The notes under the pieces: generated by a model
The model's database searches: none
The model's input: only the letters and a program-made list of their open reading frames with translations
What the model was told of the DNA's origin: nothing
Shown here: piece after piece, positions 30,841-38,759 of the stretch
How the letters are laid out: every line of letters starts with the position of its first letter
Position numbering within the stretch: the stretch's first letter is position 1
Translations under genes and position numbers: made by a program
DNA from: a bacterium
Lineage (GTDB): Bacteria > Planctomycetota > Planctomycetia > Planctomycetales > Planctomycetaceae
Length of the DNA: 60,774 nt
Reading direction: 5' to 3'
NCBI GenBank assembly: GCA_016124895.1
Contig: WGMU01000069.1
Location: 1-60,774, forward strand

Positions 30841-32142
30841 TCAACCGACCGTTGCCGATTCTGCAGTGACGCCAGACGGCTGCGGCGGTGCGTGTTCCTC
30901 GTCGCGGGTCTTCAGCACAAACGGAGCGGCCGACTGCGAATGATCCGCTCCGCGGTACGCTCCGAAATCGCAGAACAGAAACCGCTTGATCAATCGGTAA
31001 GCGAGGCTCTTTTCCGGAATCTCGTGCCCCGGATTGAACTGCGACGTCCGCACTTCCATCGCCCGCAGTTCGGCCAGAGCTGTCTTACGAGCCGTCGCGT
31101 CCGGGGCGTCGTGCAGGACGACCAGTTCTTCCAGCAGGTCCGGTCGTTCGAGCACGATACAGCCGCGCGTCGTCTCAGCCGCCAGCTTCCGGAAGTCGCT
31201 CAGGAACGGCGAGTTGAACTTCTCATGCAGCGACTTCGACTCGTCCCGGATATTGTCCGTCGCGAACTGAATGATCGGACACGGTTCGATGCCGCCCCAC
31301 GGGTTGATGTGATGACTGATCCCCGTCGCGGCCGGACACAGCGCCCGTCCTTCGCCGTCGAAGTACGCGTCGATGATCGCGATCGGCTTCTTCGCCCGCA
31401 TTTCGACGACGAACTTCCGGATGCGAAGCTGATCTTCCGGCGTCAGACACAGTTCCGGCGACGCGTCCGGTCCCATGGGCCGGTACACGTGAAACCAAGT
31501 GTAAAGCACGCCCATCTCGATCAGACGGTCGAGCCACTCTTCCTTGAGCGTGTCGTCGATGTTCGTGTTGCAGACGCTGGTACAGACGCCCGTGAAGACT
31601 TTGTTGTTCAGGCAGTTCTGAATGCCTTCGATCGTCTTGCTGAGCACGCCGCCACGACCGCGCCGCTCGTCACTGACGATCTCGTTGCCCTCGACACTGA
31701 TCAGCGGAGTCACGTTGCCCAGCCGCCGCAGCGTCTTCGCGACCTCGTCCGTGATGAAGTGTCCGTTCGTGAACACCTGGAAGTAGCAGTCCGGATGCTG
31801 TTCGATGATCTGCAGCAGCTCCGGGTGCATGAACGGCTCGCCGCCGACGATCCCGAAGAAGCTGTTGCCCATTTTCTTCGAGTCGGCGATCAGCCGCCCC
31901 ATCGTCTCGACGTCCAGCTTTTCCTGCTTCGCCGCGACGTCGACCCAGCAACCCTGACAACGCAGATTGCAACTGTTGATCACCGAGACATACAGAAACG
32001 GCGGAAAGAAATCGCCGCGTTTGAGTCGCCGCTTGAATTTGACCACCGACAGCGTCCCCTTGACGCCCATGTTCCAGAGGAATTTCCACAGCAGCCGCTT
32101 GTCGGTTTCCAGCAGCGCACGTTTCGCCATTCGCAGATACAT
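30841..32142 (-). CDS. Radical SAM enzyme
   Basis: 433 residues. The [4Fe-4S]-SAM motif Cx3Cx2C is at C58, C62 and C65 (NSCNLRCQGCWV). The SAM-binding GGEPF follows at ~97-101, and a FTNGHFI strand typical of the barrel core. A C-terminal part with NPWGGIEPCPIIQFA resembles a reduced SPASM-like extension with few Cys. The ~40 residues before the barrel (WKFLWNMGVKGTLSVVKF) are hydrophobic and amphipathic. I cannot assign a substrate; the family includes peptide-, lipid- and cofactor-modifying enzymes. It is separated by ~230 bp from the next minus gene and probably has its own promoter. Confidence 0.9.
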   Translation of the reverse strand: MYLRMAKRALLETDKRLLWKFLWNMGVKGTLSVVKFKRRLKRGDFFPPFLYVSVINSCNLRCQGCWVDVAAKQEKLDVETMGRLIADSKKMGNSFFGIVGGEPFMHPELLQIIEQHPDCYFQVFTNGHFITDEVAKTLRRLGNVTPLISVEGNEIVSDERRGRGGVLSKTIEGIQNCLNNKVFTGVCTSVCNTNIDDTLKEEWLDRLIEMGVLYTWFHVYRPMGPDASPELCLTPEDQLRIRKFVVEMRAKKPIAIIDAYFDGEGRALCPAATGISHHINPWGGIEPCPIIQFATDNIRDESKSLHEKFNSPFLSDFRKLAAETTRGCIVLERPDLLEELVVLHDAPDATARKTALAELRAMEVRTSQFNPGHEIPEKSLAYRLIKRFLFCDFGAYRGADHSQSAAPFVLKTRDEEHAPPQPSGVTAESATVG

Positions 32143-32320
32143 CGCAGATCCCGTCGCGGTCAGAACCGCTCAGCAGGTGAAGCGTCAAACAGGACTGGCC
32201 ATTGTACCTGGGGCCTGCCACATTGAAACTGGAGGACCGGCGAACGTTCGACGTTGTCTCAATCGCACCGATGTTTGGCGCACTGGAAGCTTTGCACACT
32301 GTGGATATCTAATTGCCAAC

Positions 32321-32352
32321 AGTAGGCATCTCAGCGGAGCGAGGTGCCTACT
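32321..32352. repeat. Intergenic 12-bp inverted repeat
   Basis: AGTAGGCATCTC at 32321-32332 pairs with GAGGTGCCTACT at 32341-32352 (one G:T), leaving an 8-nt loop AGCGGAGC. It lies immediately beyond the end of the minus-strand TPR remnant. No T-run follows on either strand, so it looks like one more small palindromic repeat of this genome rather than a terminator. Confidence 0.6.
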
Positions 32353-32720
32353 TTAGTGACCCGACAGCTCAGCCCGTCGTGCCAGCACGGCACCGAAGAT
32401 GGCGATTTCCGCGTCCTCCAGCTCTTCCTTCCGTCGCCAGTATCCGCGCTTCTCGATCAGCCGCCGCGCCTCCCGGAGATCATCCTGTGGCGAACTGTCC
32501 CATGGATAGGGCCGGTTCCCACCGGCCGATTCGTTGCCGCCACCCGCTGAGCCGGACTCGGTCGCAGACTGGCCGGTGGGAACCGGCCCTGTGGATTCAT
32601 CCGACCGGGCATACAGCACGCCAAATAGCCGGGCACGGGTGAGGAGCGTATCCGCATGATAAAGCGGCATCGGCCCCCGCCGAGCAATCTGCAACGTCTC
32701 ATCCAGAACAGGACCAGACC
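32353..32720 (-). pseudogene. C-terminal remnant of an effector-type TPR module
   Basis: Read on the minus strand, this stretch encodes LDETLQIARRGPMPLYHAD, then LLTRARLF, a Gly/Ser-rich insert, and DDLREARRLIEKRGYWRRKEE to a TAA stop. The pattern matches the last TPR units (EIAERGPM..HLADIHLHRARLF, then AR.LIE..GYHRR..E) that end many large STAND/NACHT/TIR-type proteins of planctomycetes and cyanobacteria. Upstream, the open frame continues to 32943 but without family resemblance and antisense to the plus-strand remnant. No start, ribosome site or effector domain is present, so I read it as a leftover 3' end. Confidence 0.65.
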
Positions 32721-32792
32721 GGCGTCTACGATCGCTGGTCGCGAAAGGACTCTGGAACGCAGCGGCCTGGTGAAAAGCCGGAAGTTCCGTAG

Positions 32793-33374
32793 CTCTATGG
32801 ACTCGCTGGTTACCTGCACGGCCATTTTCTGCTGAGCCGAGGTGAGTTCGAAGCTGTGATCCAACGCTGTGAAGAGCCGCTGATGACCGAATGCTGTCGT
32901 GACTATCCGCTGGCCCTGGGGCTGATGCAGGTTCTGCATGCACGGGCGATTGATCTCAGAGACCAATCTTCAGGGCGAGCCGTCAGTCACCAGGCCGTGG
33001 AACTGATGGATGCGGGATTGCAGACCGTACTGGCGACTGGCCAGTACCAGTTCATTGCCAGTGCCTGGCTTGCGCGGGCCGCCCTCAATCGGCGTCGGAC
33101 TGACCTGGATGAGGCAAGGAGGGACCTTGCCTGTGCTGTCGATCTGATCGAATCGTGCGAATTGAAACGTCATCAGATCGAATGGCAATTGGAGAAAGTT
33201 GAACTTCTGGTTACAGAAAGTGAACTGGGTCATAAGCAGAGCGCAGCCTGCCTGCTAGAAGCATCGTTGGAACTTGACGTCGCAAGGCAGCTTCTGCACG
33301 AAGTGGAAGGCTATGAGGCAGGATGGAGACGGTTTCGAGCGCTGAAGAAACAGCTAATGAAGTCTCATAAATAG
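32793..33374 (+). pseudogene. TPR-effector remnant, opposite orientation
   Basis: About 190 codons with TPR-effector resemblance: GYLHGHFLLSRGEFEAV, then YPLALGLMQVLHARAIDLRD, ASAWLARAALNRRRTDLDEA and RRDLACAVDLIESCELKRH. These align in order with the ALG..LLARA.LRR..GDFD.A..DLDEALEIAER..MRLHE ladder of large conflict-type proteins. The resembling frame continues upstream of any start to an in-frame TAG at 32790-32792, so the 5' part is lost. A GTG at 32856 or ATG could still drive a ~170-residue product. It faces away from the minus-strand remnant, which implies two different broken genes or an inversion. Confidence 0.6.
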
Positions 33375-33476
33375 GACATTTCTCAAAAAAAAGAGACGGA
33401 AAACCTAAGAATCTCCTTTTAGATTCGCACTATTCGTAGTACATTCCATGACGGCAGACACGAAAGGAGTATCGCC
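33375..33476 (+). promoter_or_regulatory. AT-rich upstream region of the ROK-like operon
   Basis: A ~100-bp stretch much richer in A/T than its surroundings, with an A8 run flanked by TCTC/GAGA (around 33379-33394) and a small ACTA-TTCG-TAGT palindrome (33430-33441). It ends with GAAAGGAG 8 nt before the ATG at 33477. It is the natural place for the promoter of the three-gene unit; specific -35/-10 boxes cannot be called with confidence. Confidence 0.45.
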
Positions 33477-34448
33477 ATGCTCGATATTGCCCACATTTCC
33501 CTTGCCCGGATACCTGCTCGCACACCACTGCGTGTCCTTTTCCCGGGGCGCCAGGAGTGGCCAGAAAAGTCCCGTGGGTACCTTCGCAGTTCTGGCTCGA
33601 TCGCTGGAAGCTGGCTTGAAAGTCTGGGTAGAAATACACAGGCGTCCGATCTTCCCTGCCGTGACTACCCCGACAGTGTGCTGACCAGGAGGAATCACAT
33701 CAGGCCGTTTGGAGTGGCTGCTCACCACCTGGTTCTAAGTGCACGTAATTGTCTGAATGAATCTGGCTCACAGGTTCGTATCAATGGCCACTGGTATCGT
33801 CGCTCGGGAGATACGCCTGTTTCGGAAGCCTGGCCGGTCCTGCAGGCATCTGTCGCTGGAGGACGCATCGTTCCGTGCTCAGAGGCGGAACAGGACGATG
33901 GAGACATCGTGACCGGAATTCCTCTGGTGCTTCCGGCAGGTCGGACCATTTCGGAAGATTTTCTGCTCGCCAACTGCTCGGATGTTGCACATTCATTCTC
34001 TGTTCATCCGCACGGTATGTTCGGGCCGCCGCCTCCCGCCTGGCAGGAACTCAGTGATGTATTTGTGAACGGAAAAACGACAGGCCTCGAAGATCATCTT
34101 CTCGCGGAACAGTTACGAAAGACCGCAGAAGCCCACCGTGCTGAAACATCTGATCGGCTGCTCCATTCCGTAGCTGCAGCGATGCCCGATGGCAGCCTGT
34201 TGTTTATGGCCGCGACCGGGGGTCTGCTCAGGATCAGCCGGCTGCTTGCCCATTCCTTTCAGGCGACGGCAGCCCTGGTGCTCGAAAACTCCGGGTCGGT
34301 CGGCTGGTCTTATCGAGAACCAGAAGCTCACGAGGAGAAGCTGCTTGTCGGCGCGGCAAACCAGCGGGAGTTGGGCACGGTGTTTCTTGCATTCGATGCC
34401 GGCGGATACGTTGACACGTTTACCCACCCGTTTCTGAAAGCCATCTGA
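33477..34448 (+). CDS. Unknown protein; C-terminal part loosely like NAGPA phosphodiester glycosidases
   Basis: 323 residues; the ATG at 33477 has an excellent AAAGGAG site. No signal peptide or membrane helix. The first ~110 residues are unlike anything I know. The segment 229-305 (LHSVAAAMPDGSLLFMAATG, later RISRLLAHSFQATAALVLENS and NQRELGTVFLAFDAGG) follows the order of the end of NAGPA-type domains, where a 'DG.l.lv..dG' strand, a helix 'l..LL..lGa..AlnLDGGGS' and a final strand occur; but the key DGGGS reads ENSGS here. This is a weak structural guess. The gene opens a three-gene plus-strand unit (66 bp to the next start) of apparently foreign base composition. Confidence 0.7.
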   Translation: MLDIAHISLARIPARTPLRVLFPGRQEWPEKSRGYLRSSGSIAGSWLESLGRNTQASDLPCRDYPDSVLTRRNHIRPFGVAAHHLVLSARNCLNESGSQVRINGHWYRRSGDTPVSEAWPVLQASVAGGRIVPCSEAEQDDGDIVTGIPLVLPAGRTISEDFLLANCSDVAHSFSVHPHGMFGPPPPAWQELSDVFVNGKTTGLEDHLLAEQLRKTAEAHRAETSDRLLHSVAAAMPDGSLLFMAATGGLLRISRLLAHSFQATAALVLENSGSVGWSYREPEAHEEKLLVGAANQRELGTVFLAFDAGGYVDTFTHPFLKAI

Positions 34449-34513
34449 GACTGGACGGCCCATCAATACCCGAATCAGCTCCACAAAAGCCAGGCGACCG
34501 GTCGAGGTTTCCA

Positions 34514-35548
34514 ATGTCTGACACCGACAATGATGCTGAACCGGTCATAGACGCTTCACCTGTGCGCAGCACCGGGGCCGGACGCGTCAGAATGCCGCTC
34601 ACCCTGGATGATCTGCAGTTGCTGCGAAAGTTGCGTCTGCTCATTGAATCAGGCCAGGTTCCGTCGACGATGCGCGAAGTGGCAGACCGACTGGAGATTC
34701 AGCGAACGCTGCTGTATCGGCTGCGGGATCGAGTCAACGAGCAGTTGCAGGGAGAATTTGAATGGATCCAGGATGGGCGTCTGGTGCTGCCGGCGGAAGT
34801 GTTTCGCGTCACGCGACACATGCTGTCCGACGATGGCGAGCTGGCAGGTACCTGCTTTCCGGTCATGTCTGCAGGAACCGCTGCGAGAATGCTGCTGACG
34901 GAGTACATCCTGCGGCGCGATTTGGCAGCGCCCAGGATCGCATATCGCCGCTCAGCGGATGTCGTCTCGTCACTGGCTTCGAGAGAAATCGATCTGGCAT
35001 TGCTGAACCGCATCAATGGGCAGCCGCAGACCGACACTGACAGCGAGACGGTTTCAAATCGGGAGGGCCTTGAGCTGGCTTCCATTTCGCTCCGTCAATG
35101 GGAGGCGGTGTCGGTTCGCCCGTTCGATGACTCTGCGCCGGTGCGTCGCGTGAAATGGGAATTCGGCAGTTTTGCATGGCAACTGGATTTACTTGCCTGC
35201 CCCGAAAGATCGCCGAACGGCCTCGTGCCAGACGCAAGGCAGTCACTGCCATGCTCATCTGTCCCTGCGGACAACCCCATTTGCCTCACAGGTTACGACG
35301 TCGCATTTGAAATGCTCCGACGTCAACTGCGGATCGCCACGACAGTTCCATCGATTTATCTGACGGAGTGTGATCGTCAAAGGTTTCAGATCCGCCCCAC
35401 TCCTGCACGAGTGACCGGGTGTCTGACGGCTGTCTTCCGTCGGGATGACGAACAGCGCTTCAGGGCATGGCTGGATCAGGACACGTGGAATCAATGCGGC
35501 CTGCAATCGGAAGCAGAATCAGCCTCTTCACAATCGGAGATTCCATAA
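34514..35548 (+). CDS. LysR-like sensor/regulator with divergent HTH
   Basis: 344 residues. Residues ~30-95 contain a helix-turn-helix (STMREVADRLEIQRTLLYRL) with a wing-like end. Residues ~112-340 resemble the LysR substrate-binding fold: a first strand and helix (FPVMSAGTAARMLLTEYILR), then the ladder IAYRRSADVVSSLASREIDLALL that matches LysR 'l..g....l...l..gelDlai'. The HTH is not the standard LysR one (no A.RL..SQpalS..I). It is probably the ligand-sensing regulator of the unit. Stop and next start are 12 bp apart (35548/35561), so co-transcription with the permuted ROK gene is very likely. Confidence 0.75.
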   Translation: MSDTDNDAEPVIDASPVRSTGAGRVRMPLTLDDLQLLRKLRLLIESGQVPSTMREVADRLEIQRTLLYRLRDRVNEQLQGEFEWIQDGRLVLPAEVFRVTRHMLSDDGELAGTCFPVMSAGTAARMLLTEYILRRDLAAPRIAYRRSADVVSSLASREIDLALLNRINGQPQTDTDSETVSNREGLELASISLRQWEAVSVRPFDDSAPVRRVKWEFGSFAWQLDLLACPERSPNGLVPDARQSLPCSSVPADNPICLTGYDVAFEMLRRQLRIATTVPSIYLTECDRQRFQIRPTPARVTGCLTAVFRRDDEQRFRAWLDQDTWNQCGLQSEAESASSQSEIP

Positions 35549-35560
35549 CGCTGGCGGCCA

Positions 35561-37417
35561 ATGCTCTTATCAGCAATTCATCAGTCAAGAAGCCGGAAGA
35601 TGACCGAACAGAACAATGTCCCGTTGGCTGACCTTACCACGACAGTCGAATCCCTGTCGCAGATCCGGATGCTGCAGTTGACGATGGGAACGGGCATCGC
35701 CGGAGCCGTCATTGAGAACGGTCGTCCCTGGTCACACCTCTGTGAACCAGGCAAGGTGTGCCTGAATGTTGTTCCACCAGGAGGTTTTCTGTTTCCTCAC
35801 GGCCTGGCCGCGAACAACCAACTCGCCAAAGCCGCACTGGAGCGGGTTGGCCGAAGGCTGCTCGACCTTCCTGATGAGTTGCCGCTTGAAGTTCGGTGGC
35901 TCGCGACCATTGGCAACGACGGCGAGGCTCCACCGGCACTGAAGGGCAGGTTGCCATCGGATGCCAGTCGGCGTTCACGTGAAGTCTTCCGCCTGCTTGG
36001 GCGCGGACTCGGGGACCTGATTGTGACCCTGATGCCACACATTAATTTCGGCGCGGTGGGGCTTGCCGGAGGGCCACTCAAAGGAATGCCCAGCCTGATT
36101 GCTGATGAGATCAGAACTCGATGTGCAAAGTATGGATATGATGTGACGCGAATCGCTCCTGATGTGCCCGTGTTTCTGGTCAACCGGCCCGATGAGCGAC
36201 GACTGGAAGGGCGATTGACGAGCATGTTGAGGAGCATCGCAGAAAATGCGGATGAGTACTCGGCGGACCTGCTCAACGCGATGATCGGATGCGCCGAACA
36301 GGAACTGTTACTGATCGATGACGACGACATACGCGAGACGGTTGGCCGCTACGTTCCGGTTGGTGCCTATCGATTGATCATGGACGAACTTCGTCGCTGC
36401 TTCCCGGACGCCCCTTCGTTTAATGTCGAGTTCGACGGTCGCCCCTTCGCTTCCGTCCCGATTCCAGTCGTCTGGAAAGCTTCGGACGCAGTTAATTCGT
36501 TCCTTGCAAAATATCCGTGCGCGGTCGTCGTCAATCAGGCGATGACGGCCGGGTTTCAGGAGTGCAATTACCTCACCGCCTCAACAATTGCTGCAACCAC
36601 TGCAGCCTTGCCGCTTACGACCGGTCACCGATATGCCTTCGAAGGCACTCCGTACGCAACCGGGCTGGGAGTGATCTCGACGTGCTATTACTCCACCTGG
36701 AAAGGCGTGTGTGCGGCAACTCATCCGATCAGCGGCGACAGCGTGCATCCTTCCGCCAGATCGACAGTTAACGAATCAGAACGTGAAGTCGCGGTTGGAA
36801 TCGACATTGGAGGCAGCAACATCAAGATGGTTGTCCTGATTCGATCAGAGCCTTGTGACCCGTGGATGATCTGCACTCATCAGACTTCAGTACCAACGGC
36901 GTCGACGTCTGTGGTTGAGCCACACGCGGATGCCTCAACACCGCTGCTGACAAGTGCCAGCAACCCGCTGGACGAATTCGCAACAGACACCGTCATTCAA
37001 GCGCCTGATGCGGACATCGACACGGTCGCGACAACACTCGTCAGGCGAATCCAGCGGCTGACTGATCAGGTCGCACCTGGAGTCAGGATTGTCAAAGTCG
37101 GAATCGTCTTCCCTGCCGCCGTGGCTAACGGCGTCGCCGCTGGGGCTACCAGCCGAATTGCTGGATCGTTTGCCGGGCAGACAACCTCAATCATGAATGC
37201 GAACGCAAACCAGCTTCTGAAGCTGGACGTGGTTCCGGCCTTTCAGCGTGCCTGGATGCAGTCTGGCCATAGCGACCGACCGACGTTTCAGCTCGCCAAC
37301 GACGGACCTGCCTCGACATTTGGTTCTTTCAACGCAGTATTTGGACGTCCTGCCGCAATCAGTGCGGTCGCTGAACCCGAAGGCGGTTTCGGAGCGTTTG
37401 GTGTTGCTCAGTTGTGA
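35561..37417 (+). CDS. ROK-family protein with circularly permuted domain order
   Basis: 618 residues. ROK sugar kinases/regulators run from DIGGT (phosphate 1) through NDAN to LGTGIGGGI (phosphate 2) and a final GGGL helix. Here the order is reversed. Residues ~36-205 carry the C-terminal half: TMGTGIAGAVIENGRPW (41-57), the helix FRLLGRGLGDLIVTLMP and VGLAGGPLKGMPSLIADEI. Residues ~410-600 carry the N-terminal half: VGIDIGGSNIKMVVL (412-426), VKVGIVFPAAVANG, and FQLANDGPAST with the catalytic-type Asp581. About 200 residues of unknown type join the halves. The ROK zinc motif (GH..CxCGxxGC) is absent. Start at 35561 or at ATG 35600. Sugar or sugar-like substrate is inferred. Confidence 0.75.
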   Translation: MLLSAIHQSRSRKMTEQNNVPLADLTTTVESLSQIRMLQLTMGTGIAGAVIENGRPWSHLCEPGKVCLNVVPPGGFLFPHGLAANNQLAKAALERVGRRLLDLPDELPLEVRWLATIGNDGEAPPALKGRLPSDASRRSREVFRLLGRGLGDLIVTLMPHINFGAVGLAGGPLKGMPSLIADEIRTRCAKYGYDVTRIAPDVPVFLVNRPDERRLEGRLTSMLRSIAENADEYSADLLNAMIGCAEQELLLIDDDDIRETVGRYVPVGAYRLIMDELRRCFPDAPSFNVEFDGRPFASVPIPVVWKASDAVNSFLAKYPCAVVVNQAMTAGFQECNYLTASTIAATTAALPLTTGHRYAFEGTPYATGLGVISTCYYSTWKGVCAATHPISGDSVHPSARSTVNESEREVAVGIDIGGSNIKMVVLIRSEPCDPWMICTHQTSVPTASTSVVEPHADASTPLLTSASNPLDEFATDTVIQAPDADIDTVATTLVRRIQRLTDQVAPGVRIVKVGIVFPAAVANGVAAGATSRIAGSFAGQTTSIMNANANQLLKLDVVPAFQRAWMQSGHSDRPTFQLANDGPASTFGSFNAVFGRPAAISAVAEPEGGFGAFGVAQL

Positions 37418-37421
37418 GCAA

Positions 37422-38759
37422 CTACTCCTGCGTCACACGATTCAATTCGTGGACCGTGTCGACGATCTGCTGTTCCAGACCGGCTTTCCACCTGGATGGA
37501 AGCTGGTAGTAGATCATCGAGCTGTCGCCTTCGTAGCCGCCCTCTTCGAGCACTCGTTCGGACGGGATGTACGCCATGACGTCGTTGGCGTAACCGGTGA
37601 CCCAGGTGCGGCCGTCACCAAGCTCGTGCTTCAGCCGGAGCTGATACTCGACAACGAGTTCTCCACCGAGCGCCACCCAGGTTAGACCGTCGCCGAGCTG
37701 CCAGACCTGGACGGGGAACGGATACGTTTCGAGAAGTCGTCCGTGCTCGTCCCATTGTTTGAGCAGGTTAGTCGCCCGGTTTTTGAGGTAGCGGTTGCCG
37801 GTCTTTTGTGTCTCTTCGAGTTCCTGTTTCGAGGGCAGCGCGGCGAAGGCGAGGTCGATGTCGCGAAATGCGGTTTTCAACTGACCGGTGACGGGTTTGA
37901 GTTCTCCGTCGTCGAGTACGTCATCGACGGCGGTGGCGAGCATCCGGCCGTACTTCTCGGCAAGTTCGAGCGTCCGGCGCGGCAGCGGGTTCTGGTCCGC
38001 TCCGCCGCCAGTGAAGAACATCGCGACGCAGTCTGGATGGTGATCTTCCAGATAAAGCTGCGCGAAGCCGGCGTAGTCACCACACCAGTTGTAAAAGCCG
38101 AGCGTCGTGTTGTGGCAGGCGTAACCGAAGACAAGACCTCGCAGTTGCTGGCCGTCTGGAGATTCGATCCGGAGGACCGGCACCTGATGGTCGTACGGGC
38201 CGATGCCTTTGGGGGCTCGACGATTCGCGGCGAAAGTTGTACGTCCACTGCCCGCGGAAAGCCTTGCCGGTTTGAGGTCCGCGATCGCCGCGTCGATCAG
38301 CTCAATCATCTTTCCATTCAGCCACTGCTGATAGTCACGAACCTGCTGCCAGTCGGCGTCTTTCATATCGAGCATGAAGCTCAGCATGTGATCGAGGGCC
38401 GGGCCACAGTGCGTGTGCGAGCAGGTAAACATCAGGCTGCGCCGCGGGATGCCGTGCTTCTGCTCGACAACCGCGGAGACGGCGCGAACCATTTTGATCG
38501 GCACGCCGACAAGGTCACTCGAAATGAAAACCGCGGTCTCCCCCTGTGCGTCGCGAACGGCGGCCGCTCGCGCATAGAGATCGTGAATCGCTCCCTCGGC
38601 CGCGTGATCCCGGCCGCCGTAACCGGACATCCACATTGGCTGCGGAGGCGTGATGACAACGCGGGCAACGCCGGCCTGCCACGCGGTCGAATCAGCGGCC
38701 TGGACAGTGAGCGATAGAGCGGACAGAAGCAAAACGGCGAGGAAGATTCGCGAAGACAT
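37422..38759 (-). CDS. Exported neutral/alkaline ceramidase-like hydrolase
   Basis: 445 residues from the ATG at 38759, where a signal peptide begins (FLAVLLLSALSLTVQAA). The N-terminal part fits the neutral ceramidase family: AGVARVVITPPQPMWMSGYG, SSDLVGVPIKMV, then FTCSHTHCGPA with the paired His of the zinc site, and FTGGGADQNP. The family cleaves N-acyl bonds of sphingolipids; many bacterial members have unknown amide substrates. Such exported copies are numerous in planctomycetes. A longer frame to 38900 adds 47 residues without support. It converges with the permuted ROK gene (4 bp between stops). Confidence 0.88.
   Translation of the reverse strand: MSSRIFLAVLLLSALSLTVQAADSTAWQAGVARVVITPPQPMWMSGYGGRDHAAEGAIHDLYARAAAVRDAQGETAVFISSDLVGVPIKMVRAVSAVVEQKHGIPRRSLMFTCSHTHCGPALDHMLSFMLDMKDADWQQVRDYQQWLNGKMIELIDAAIADLKPARLSAGSGRTTFAANRRAPKGIGPYDHQVPVLRIESPDGQQLRGLVFGYACHNTTLGFYNWCGDYAGFAQLYLEDHHPDCVAMFFTGGGADQNPLPRRTLELAEKYGRMLATAVDDVLDDGELKPVTGQLKTAFRDIDLAFAALPSKQELEETQKTGNRYLKNRATNLLKQWDEHGRLLETYPFPVQVWQLGDGLTWVALGGELVVEYQLRLKHELGDGRTWVTGYANDVMAYIPSERVLEEGGYEGDSSMIYYQLPSRWKAGLEQQIVDTVHELNRVTQE

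Follow-up and report, generated by a model that had tools for sequence, protein, structure and literature searches.

A ROK-like protein with its two kinase lobes in swapped order, probably a circular permutant, encoded in a codon-atypical gene block

The window, that is, the whole stretch of 60,774 nucleotides analyzed here, contains a gene whose product resembles ROK-family kinases, with the two halves of the family domain in reversed order. The ORF coordinates of the original prediction were confirmed, as was its motif order, with the phosphate-2 loop first (GTGIAG from residue 43) and DIGGS and NDG last (from residues 415 and 580). The gene and its features, together with the two genes preceding it, are the following.

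33477..34448, + strand: relative of NAGPA-like (phosphodiester glycosidase-like) proteins, 323 aa, with relatives in loci L010 and L078
34514..35548, + strand: orphan ORF, 344 aa, separated from the ROK-like ORF by 12 bases
35561..37417, + strand: ORF of the putatively permuted ROK-like protein, 618 aa, no internal stops
35600, + strand: alternative in-frame start ATG (residue 14) of the same ORF
35660..36244, + strand: ROK lobe II-like half, aa ~34-228 (profile matches at aa 36-56 and 140-191; alignment with natural lobe II)
35687..35704, + strand: phosphate-2 motif GTGIAG, aa 43-48 (profile and motif scan)
35744..35755, + strand: EPGK, aa 62-65, aligned on the ExGH sugar-site motif (alignment with five natural lobe II fragments)
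36065..36076, + strand: AGGP, aa 169-172, on the GGG adenosine-site glycines (profile and alignment)
36179..36244, + strand: aa 207-228, putatively the last ROK helix (placed by alignment, no profile match)
36245..36775, + strand: join of unknown type, aa 229-405 (~177 aa), no significant match
36776..37357, + strand: lobe I-like half, aa 406-599 (profile matches at aa 406-440, 490-523 and 576-599, the last two weak alone)
36803..36817, + strand: phosphate-1 motif DIGGS, aa 415-419 (profile and motif scan)
37298..37306, + strand: NDG, aa 580-582, with the catalytic-type Asp 581 (profile positions 111-134)

The ORF is coding throughout. In each of the 11 windows (300 bases) that start from 35550 to 37050, the highest codon score of all six frames belongs to its own frame, the narrowest lead being 0.01 vs 0.00 (window 35700), while in the window from 37200, which extends beyond the gene, it is tied. 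In 300 shuffles of the bases of the gene, the longest open frame had 257 codons, compared to 618 in the real sequence.

For the analysis of the domain order, a ROK profile of 328 positions was built from 43 distinct Planctomycete sequences, taken from ROK and polyphosphate-glucokinase-like loci of 25 related genomes (L011-L070). The sequences were filtered for the motif [DE][ILVF]GG[TS] near the start, followed by more than 200 residues, and thus repressor-type ROK proteins lacking this motif were left out. Separate profiles of lobes I and II were also made, with the cut chosen just before the phosphate-2 strand, which we take to be the boundary of the two kinase lobes. The profile was applied after the motifs had already been noticed.

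The full profile matches the protein in two blocks. On the N-terminal side, profile positions 135-155 and 239-290 (lobe II) align with aa 36-56 and 140-191, while on the C-terminal side, positions 2-37, 46-82 and 111-134 (lobe I) align with aa 406-440, 490-523 and 576-599, so that the profile segments of the two blocks are complementary and meet at position 134/135, roughly the junction of the two lobes. Two of the lobe I segments are insignificant when taken alone (-3.3 bits for aa 490-523 and -1.1 bits for aa 576-599), and aa 57-139, 192-228, 441-489 and 524-575 have no match to the full profile. For the protein as a whole, the score is 30.5 bits (E 1e-11, calculated with a database size of one sequence). 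Each half prefers its own lobe: aa 1-230 score 20.8 bits with the lobe II profile vs -1.4 bits with the lobe I profile, and aa 400-618 score 23.5 bits with the lobe I profile, the lobe II profile giving no reported match. For the region between them (aa 226-405), the full profile gives -3.1 bits.

In residue shuffles of each half, none of 1000 equaled the best real segment, with either the full profile or that of the respective lobe; with the full profile, the best segment of the N-terminal half scores 9.9 bits vs 5.9 for the top shuffle, and that of the C-terminal half 13.8 bits vs 4.4. A further control comprised 430 stop-to-stop ORFs of at least 200 codons, 80 from the window and the others, which include many ROK genes, from the loci other than L001, L007 and L009. 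Here the stop-to-stop ORF of the ROK-like protein scored 30.8 bits vs 2.8 bits for the second-best of the 80 window ORFs, and no ORF from outside the window scored between 5 and 60 bits. Seven ORFs had at least two segments above 3 bits, and only the ROK-like one had them out of order. When the two halves were re-joined in the natural order, the score was 30.7 bits instead of 30.5, presumably due to the local scoring of segments, and hence the re-ordering itself adds no support.

Three library models concur with the swapped order, all of their matches being below the curated cut-offs. In particular, positions 126-144 of the NCBIfam polyphosphate glucokinase model (NF045942) match aa 37-55 (E 0.004, 16.9 bits vs the cut-off of 250), positions 102-145 of Pfam ROK (PF00480) match aa 16-57 (E 0.077, 12.9 bits vs the cut-off of 22.9; 13.9 bits for the re-ordered sequence), and positions 4-23 of the allose kinase model NF007251 match aa 407-426 (E 0.17). 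Matches to TetR_C_35 (E 0.017), IclR PRK11569 (E 0.067) and photolyase chains (E 0.19) were judged to be due to chance. Given the profile blocks, the shuffle and ORF controls and the library models, we conclude that the swapped order of the two ROK halves, the central claim of the original prediction, is real at the sequence level.

Structure prediction with AlphaFold yielded a mean pLDDT of 35.5 for the whole protein as a single sequence, and 35.6 with an eight-row alignment that included two pieces of the protein itself and five natural lobe II fragments taken from viral contigs; the natural rows were restricted to lobe II, since joint alignments of both lobes never placed both halves rightly. 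The eight-row model has strands at 37-42, 48-52, 55-59 and 66-71, helices at 133-157, 176-190 and 212-228, and, on the C-terminal side, strands at 410-416, 421-429, 508-517 and 575-580. This secondary structure is compatible with the ROK lobes but is no evidence at a pLDDT of 35.6. As both models have a pLDDT of 35-36, the permuted fold is what we infer from the order of the segments.

A motif scan of all 618 residues found neither E.GH (the ExGH sugar-site motif) nor C.CG..G, the latter being derived from the ROK zinc motif (the zinc loop), which we take to be CxCGxxGCxE. The missing zinc motif had been noted in the original prediction, along with the corollary that regulation or substrate choice must differ; the absence stands, but it need not imply a changed substrate, because the zinc loop is also missing from four natural polyphosphate-glucokinase-like sequences (L041, L042, L045, L051). 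The replacement of ExGH by EPGK is a better hint of a changed substrate than the zinc loss, although two viral ROK proteins (L071 and L072) have EFGR at this site. Because of its score, its order and the altered ExGH site, we do not class the protein as a ROK member; it is predicted to work like one.

The protein shares the phosphate-1 and phosphate-2 motifs, the adenosine-site glycines and the ND Asp with the ROK family (PF00480), in particular with its polyphosphate-glucokinase-like branch (NF045942), and, as in the four natural members of this branch mentioned above, it has no zinc loop. It differs from the branch by the reversed lobes, the ~177-aa join, EPGK instead of ExGH, and its length, 618 aa compared to 239-448 aa for the open frames of these four. 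The longest frame, of 448 aa, belongs to L051 (G040:C2:443667-444233), where a further domain behind the glucokinase-like part reads as a putative HAD-type hydrolase. ROK repressors (NagC/Mlc) carry a winged helix before lobe I, and the ROK-like protein has an unmatched stretch at the same place, though without a winged-helix match.

This stretch, the join, was queried as part of aa 205-405. It has no Pfam matches; the best NCBIfam match is IclR PRK11569 (E 0.0093, 15.2 bits vs the cut-off of 380), and the best match among PDB chains has E 0.44. A winged helix, sought with a profile of eight ROK repressors from related genomes, was rejected: aa 226-405 score -3.0 bits, and 172 of 1000 shuffles score as well. 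In the original prediction, the join was suggested as a possible new domain; its lack of a significant match is not evidence of one.

Homologues with the same order of lobes, a search for which had been proposed in the original prediction, were not found among 1019 genome look-ups and four collections. The protein search covered the source genome, 59 relatives, and 397 class, 170 family and 392 phylum genomes; these sets overlap, the source genome being in each, and for both class and phylum they represent a sample of the available genomes. Scanning of genome contigs with six 8-residue patterns yielded no relatives, lobe I patterns gave 593 stretches, none of which was confirmed, and scans of viral contigs, plasmids and phages also yielded no relatives; all these scans depend on motif matches, and distant relatives could escape them. 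Outside the source genome, there were five weak partial matches (L002-L006, E 2.3e-4 to 0.009). All were rejected as relatives: the match in L002 lies on the strand opposite to a SecA-like frame, just 46 and 81 aa are aligned in L003 and L004 (26-33%), the match is 11 aa for L005, with nothing at E 1 for L006, and none of the 101 ORFs of the five loci exceeds 1.1 bits with the ROK profile. In the parts of the open-licence literature that were searched, no kinase of the ROK family or the actin fold was described as permuted; the text of a paper on the glucose kinase superfamily (PMC12696579) does not contain "permut", and that of a paper on conflict systems (PMC7159879) contains neither "circularly permuted" nor "sugar kinase".

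The upstream neighbors are as unusual as the gene itself in their composition. Third-position GC is 0.57-0.62 in the genes at 32856, 33477, 34514 and 35561 vs 0.71-0.81 in six neighbors, and the codon scores are -0.05 to 0.04 vs 0.20 to 0.35, the latter gap being partly due to construction, as the codon table came from the same six neighbors. A same-genus genome (G001; 84% complete, 1210 contigs) aligns with the window at 82% from 40632 down to 37426, which is 9 bases past the stop codon of the ROK-like gene and at the end of the neighboring gene, with other ORFs beyond. The left edge of the block is out of view, because the G001 contig breaks off within the gene 30841-32142. The simplest reading is that the codon-atypical block carrying the ROK-like gene was probably acquired, while G001 may instead have lost it. 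With the settings used, the only direct repeat in 32200-38000 is a pair of 16 bases at 34602 and 36860, the second copy lying 85 bases into the lobe I half. No tRNA genes were found in the window. Separately, there is a perfect 20-base inverted repeat with a 43-base spacer at 32508-32590, and the stretches 32371-32512 and 32624-32691 match another G001 contig, so a repeated element may be located near 32508-32590.

The orphan ORF immediately upstream has its only match among 170 family genomes in the source genome, and its library matches are weak and helix-turn-helix-like (LexA, TetR_N, E ~0.2). The protein encoded at 33477..34448 has no Pfam match itself, but it has relatives in two of the genomes searched (170 family and 397 class genomes). 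One, from G404 (L010:6333-7376), is 27% identical over 147 aa and matches NAGPA with E 0.0049, below the cut-off; the other, from G176 (L078:8834-9874), has E 1.3e-35 against the 130 ORFs of the locus. These NAGPA-like proteins form a rare family. In G404, the gene comes after a TIR-ATPase-TPR gene, with a 972-aa protein containing an AAA ATPase domain and a C-terminal RyR domain encoded further upstream (L010:300-3218); in G176, it comes after a sigma-factor-like gene that reads as having TPR-like repeats; and in the window, a TPR-like ORF (32856-33374, TPR_12 E 0.088) lies upstream. Neither of the two other loci has a ROK-like gene near the NAGPA-like one (best ROK-profile scores 2.7 and 0.4 bits), and thus the two genes do not always occur together. 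The PADLOC scan yielded no matches for the ROK-like protein and its three upstream neighbors.

Taken at the level of sequence, the order of the halves, their complementarity and the kept motifs are best read as those of a protein that derives from a ROK ancestor by circular permutation of the lobes and was probably acquired. Its ancestor would have been a ROK-type nucleotide-dependent sugar kinase of the actin/hexokinase fold, permuted at the hinge between the two lobes, so that lobe II (phosphate-2, the adenosine site and the last helix) would have moved to the front, lobe I (phosphate-1 and the catalytic Asp) would be placed last, and the ~177-residue stretch would span the distance from the old C-terminus to the old N-terminus. 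Circular permutants made by duplication and truncation are known from other folds, and the ROK-like protein has in common with them the complementary ends and the proposed route, in which a ROK gene would have been duplicated in tandem and fused, then losing its first lobe I and its last lobe II, which would yield precisely the order seen. Most likely, the halves still close together as usual, with DIGGS, GTGIAG and AGGP predicted to surround ATP in the cleft and Asp 581 as the putative base, while the ligand site would be altered, with EPGK at the place of ExGH and the zinc loop gone. Nucleotide binding is thus a likely property of the protein, and kinase activity on a changed substrate a possible but less probable one. 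Counted against this reading are the low pLDDT of both models, the library matches below their cut-offs, the unmatched parts of each half, and the fact that the gene is a single orphan with atypical codons, which would also fit a decaying gene.

Such decay is the essence of an unlikely alternative, in which a deletion fused the back half of one ROK gene with the front half of another, leaving a remnant of two tandem genes, a pseudogene or non-functional fusion rather than a folded ROK unit. The lack of relatives, the atypical codon use and the difference from G001 at the right edge of the block all agree with it, but the key motifs of both halves are retained while the remainder has diverged, 618 codons are open and the codon signal favors the coding frame over the length of the ORF, and there is one match per lobe, with complementary ends. 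Moreover, the four ROK genes found in the source genome with PF00480 are all on contigs other than that of the window, and the protein search of this genome finds only the gene itself. The order could also be real with the halves pairing between molecules, in a domain-swapped dimer, or acting as separate half-domains. The 177-aa join is long enough for that; nothing speaks against it directly, but a monomer is the simpler assumption, as the termini of ROK proteins are close to each other, both in lobe I, and we consider such an arrangement quite unlikely.

Chance resemblance, i.e. a different fold with short glycine-rich motifs similar to those of ROK proteins, would account for the low scores and for all library matches being below the cut-offs. 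It is made very improbable by the shuffle and ORF controls, by the five segments in a consistent rotated order and by each half scoring with its own lobe only. Misassembly of two tandem ROK genes, raised in the original prediction, could be suspected in a draft assembly of 195 contigs with a 16-base direct repeat pair at 34602 and 36860; however, the single open frame and the codon signal run unbroken over both joins and no longer direct repeat was found in 32200-38000 with the settings used, so that a misjoined contig as the source of the order is extremely unlikely.

At present, the putatively permuted ROK-like protein is a well-supported sequence oddity, known from a single orphan gene. Tentatively, it may be the first ROK/actin-fold kinase known to be circularly permuted in nature, its nucleotide cleft working with the termini relocated to the hinge, and its ~177-residue join being a domain not seen before that could control lobe closure. 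In the actin/hexokinase fold, the hinge motion between the two lobes drives catalysis. If the permutation is true, a chain cut at the hinge and rejoined elsewhere would show that the hinge connection is not essential, and the protein would provide a ready test of the origin of permutants by duplication and loss.
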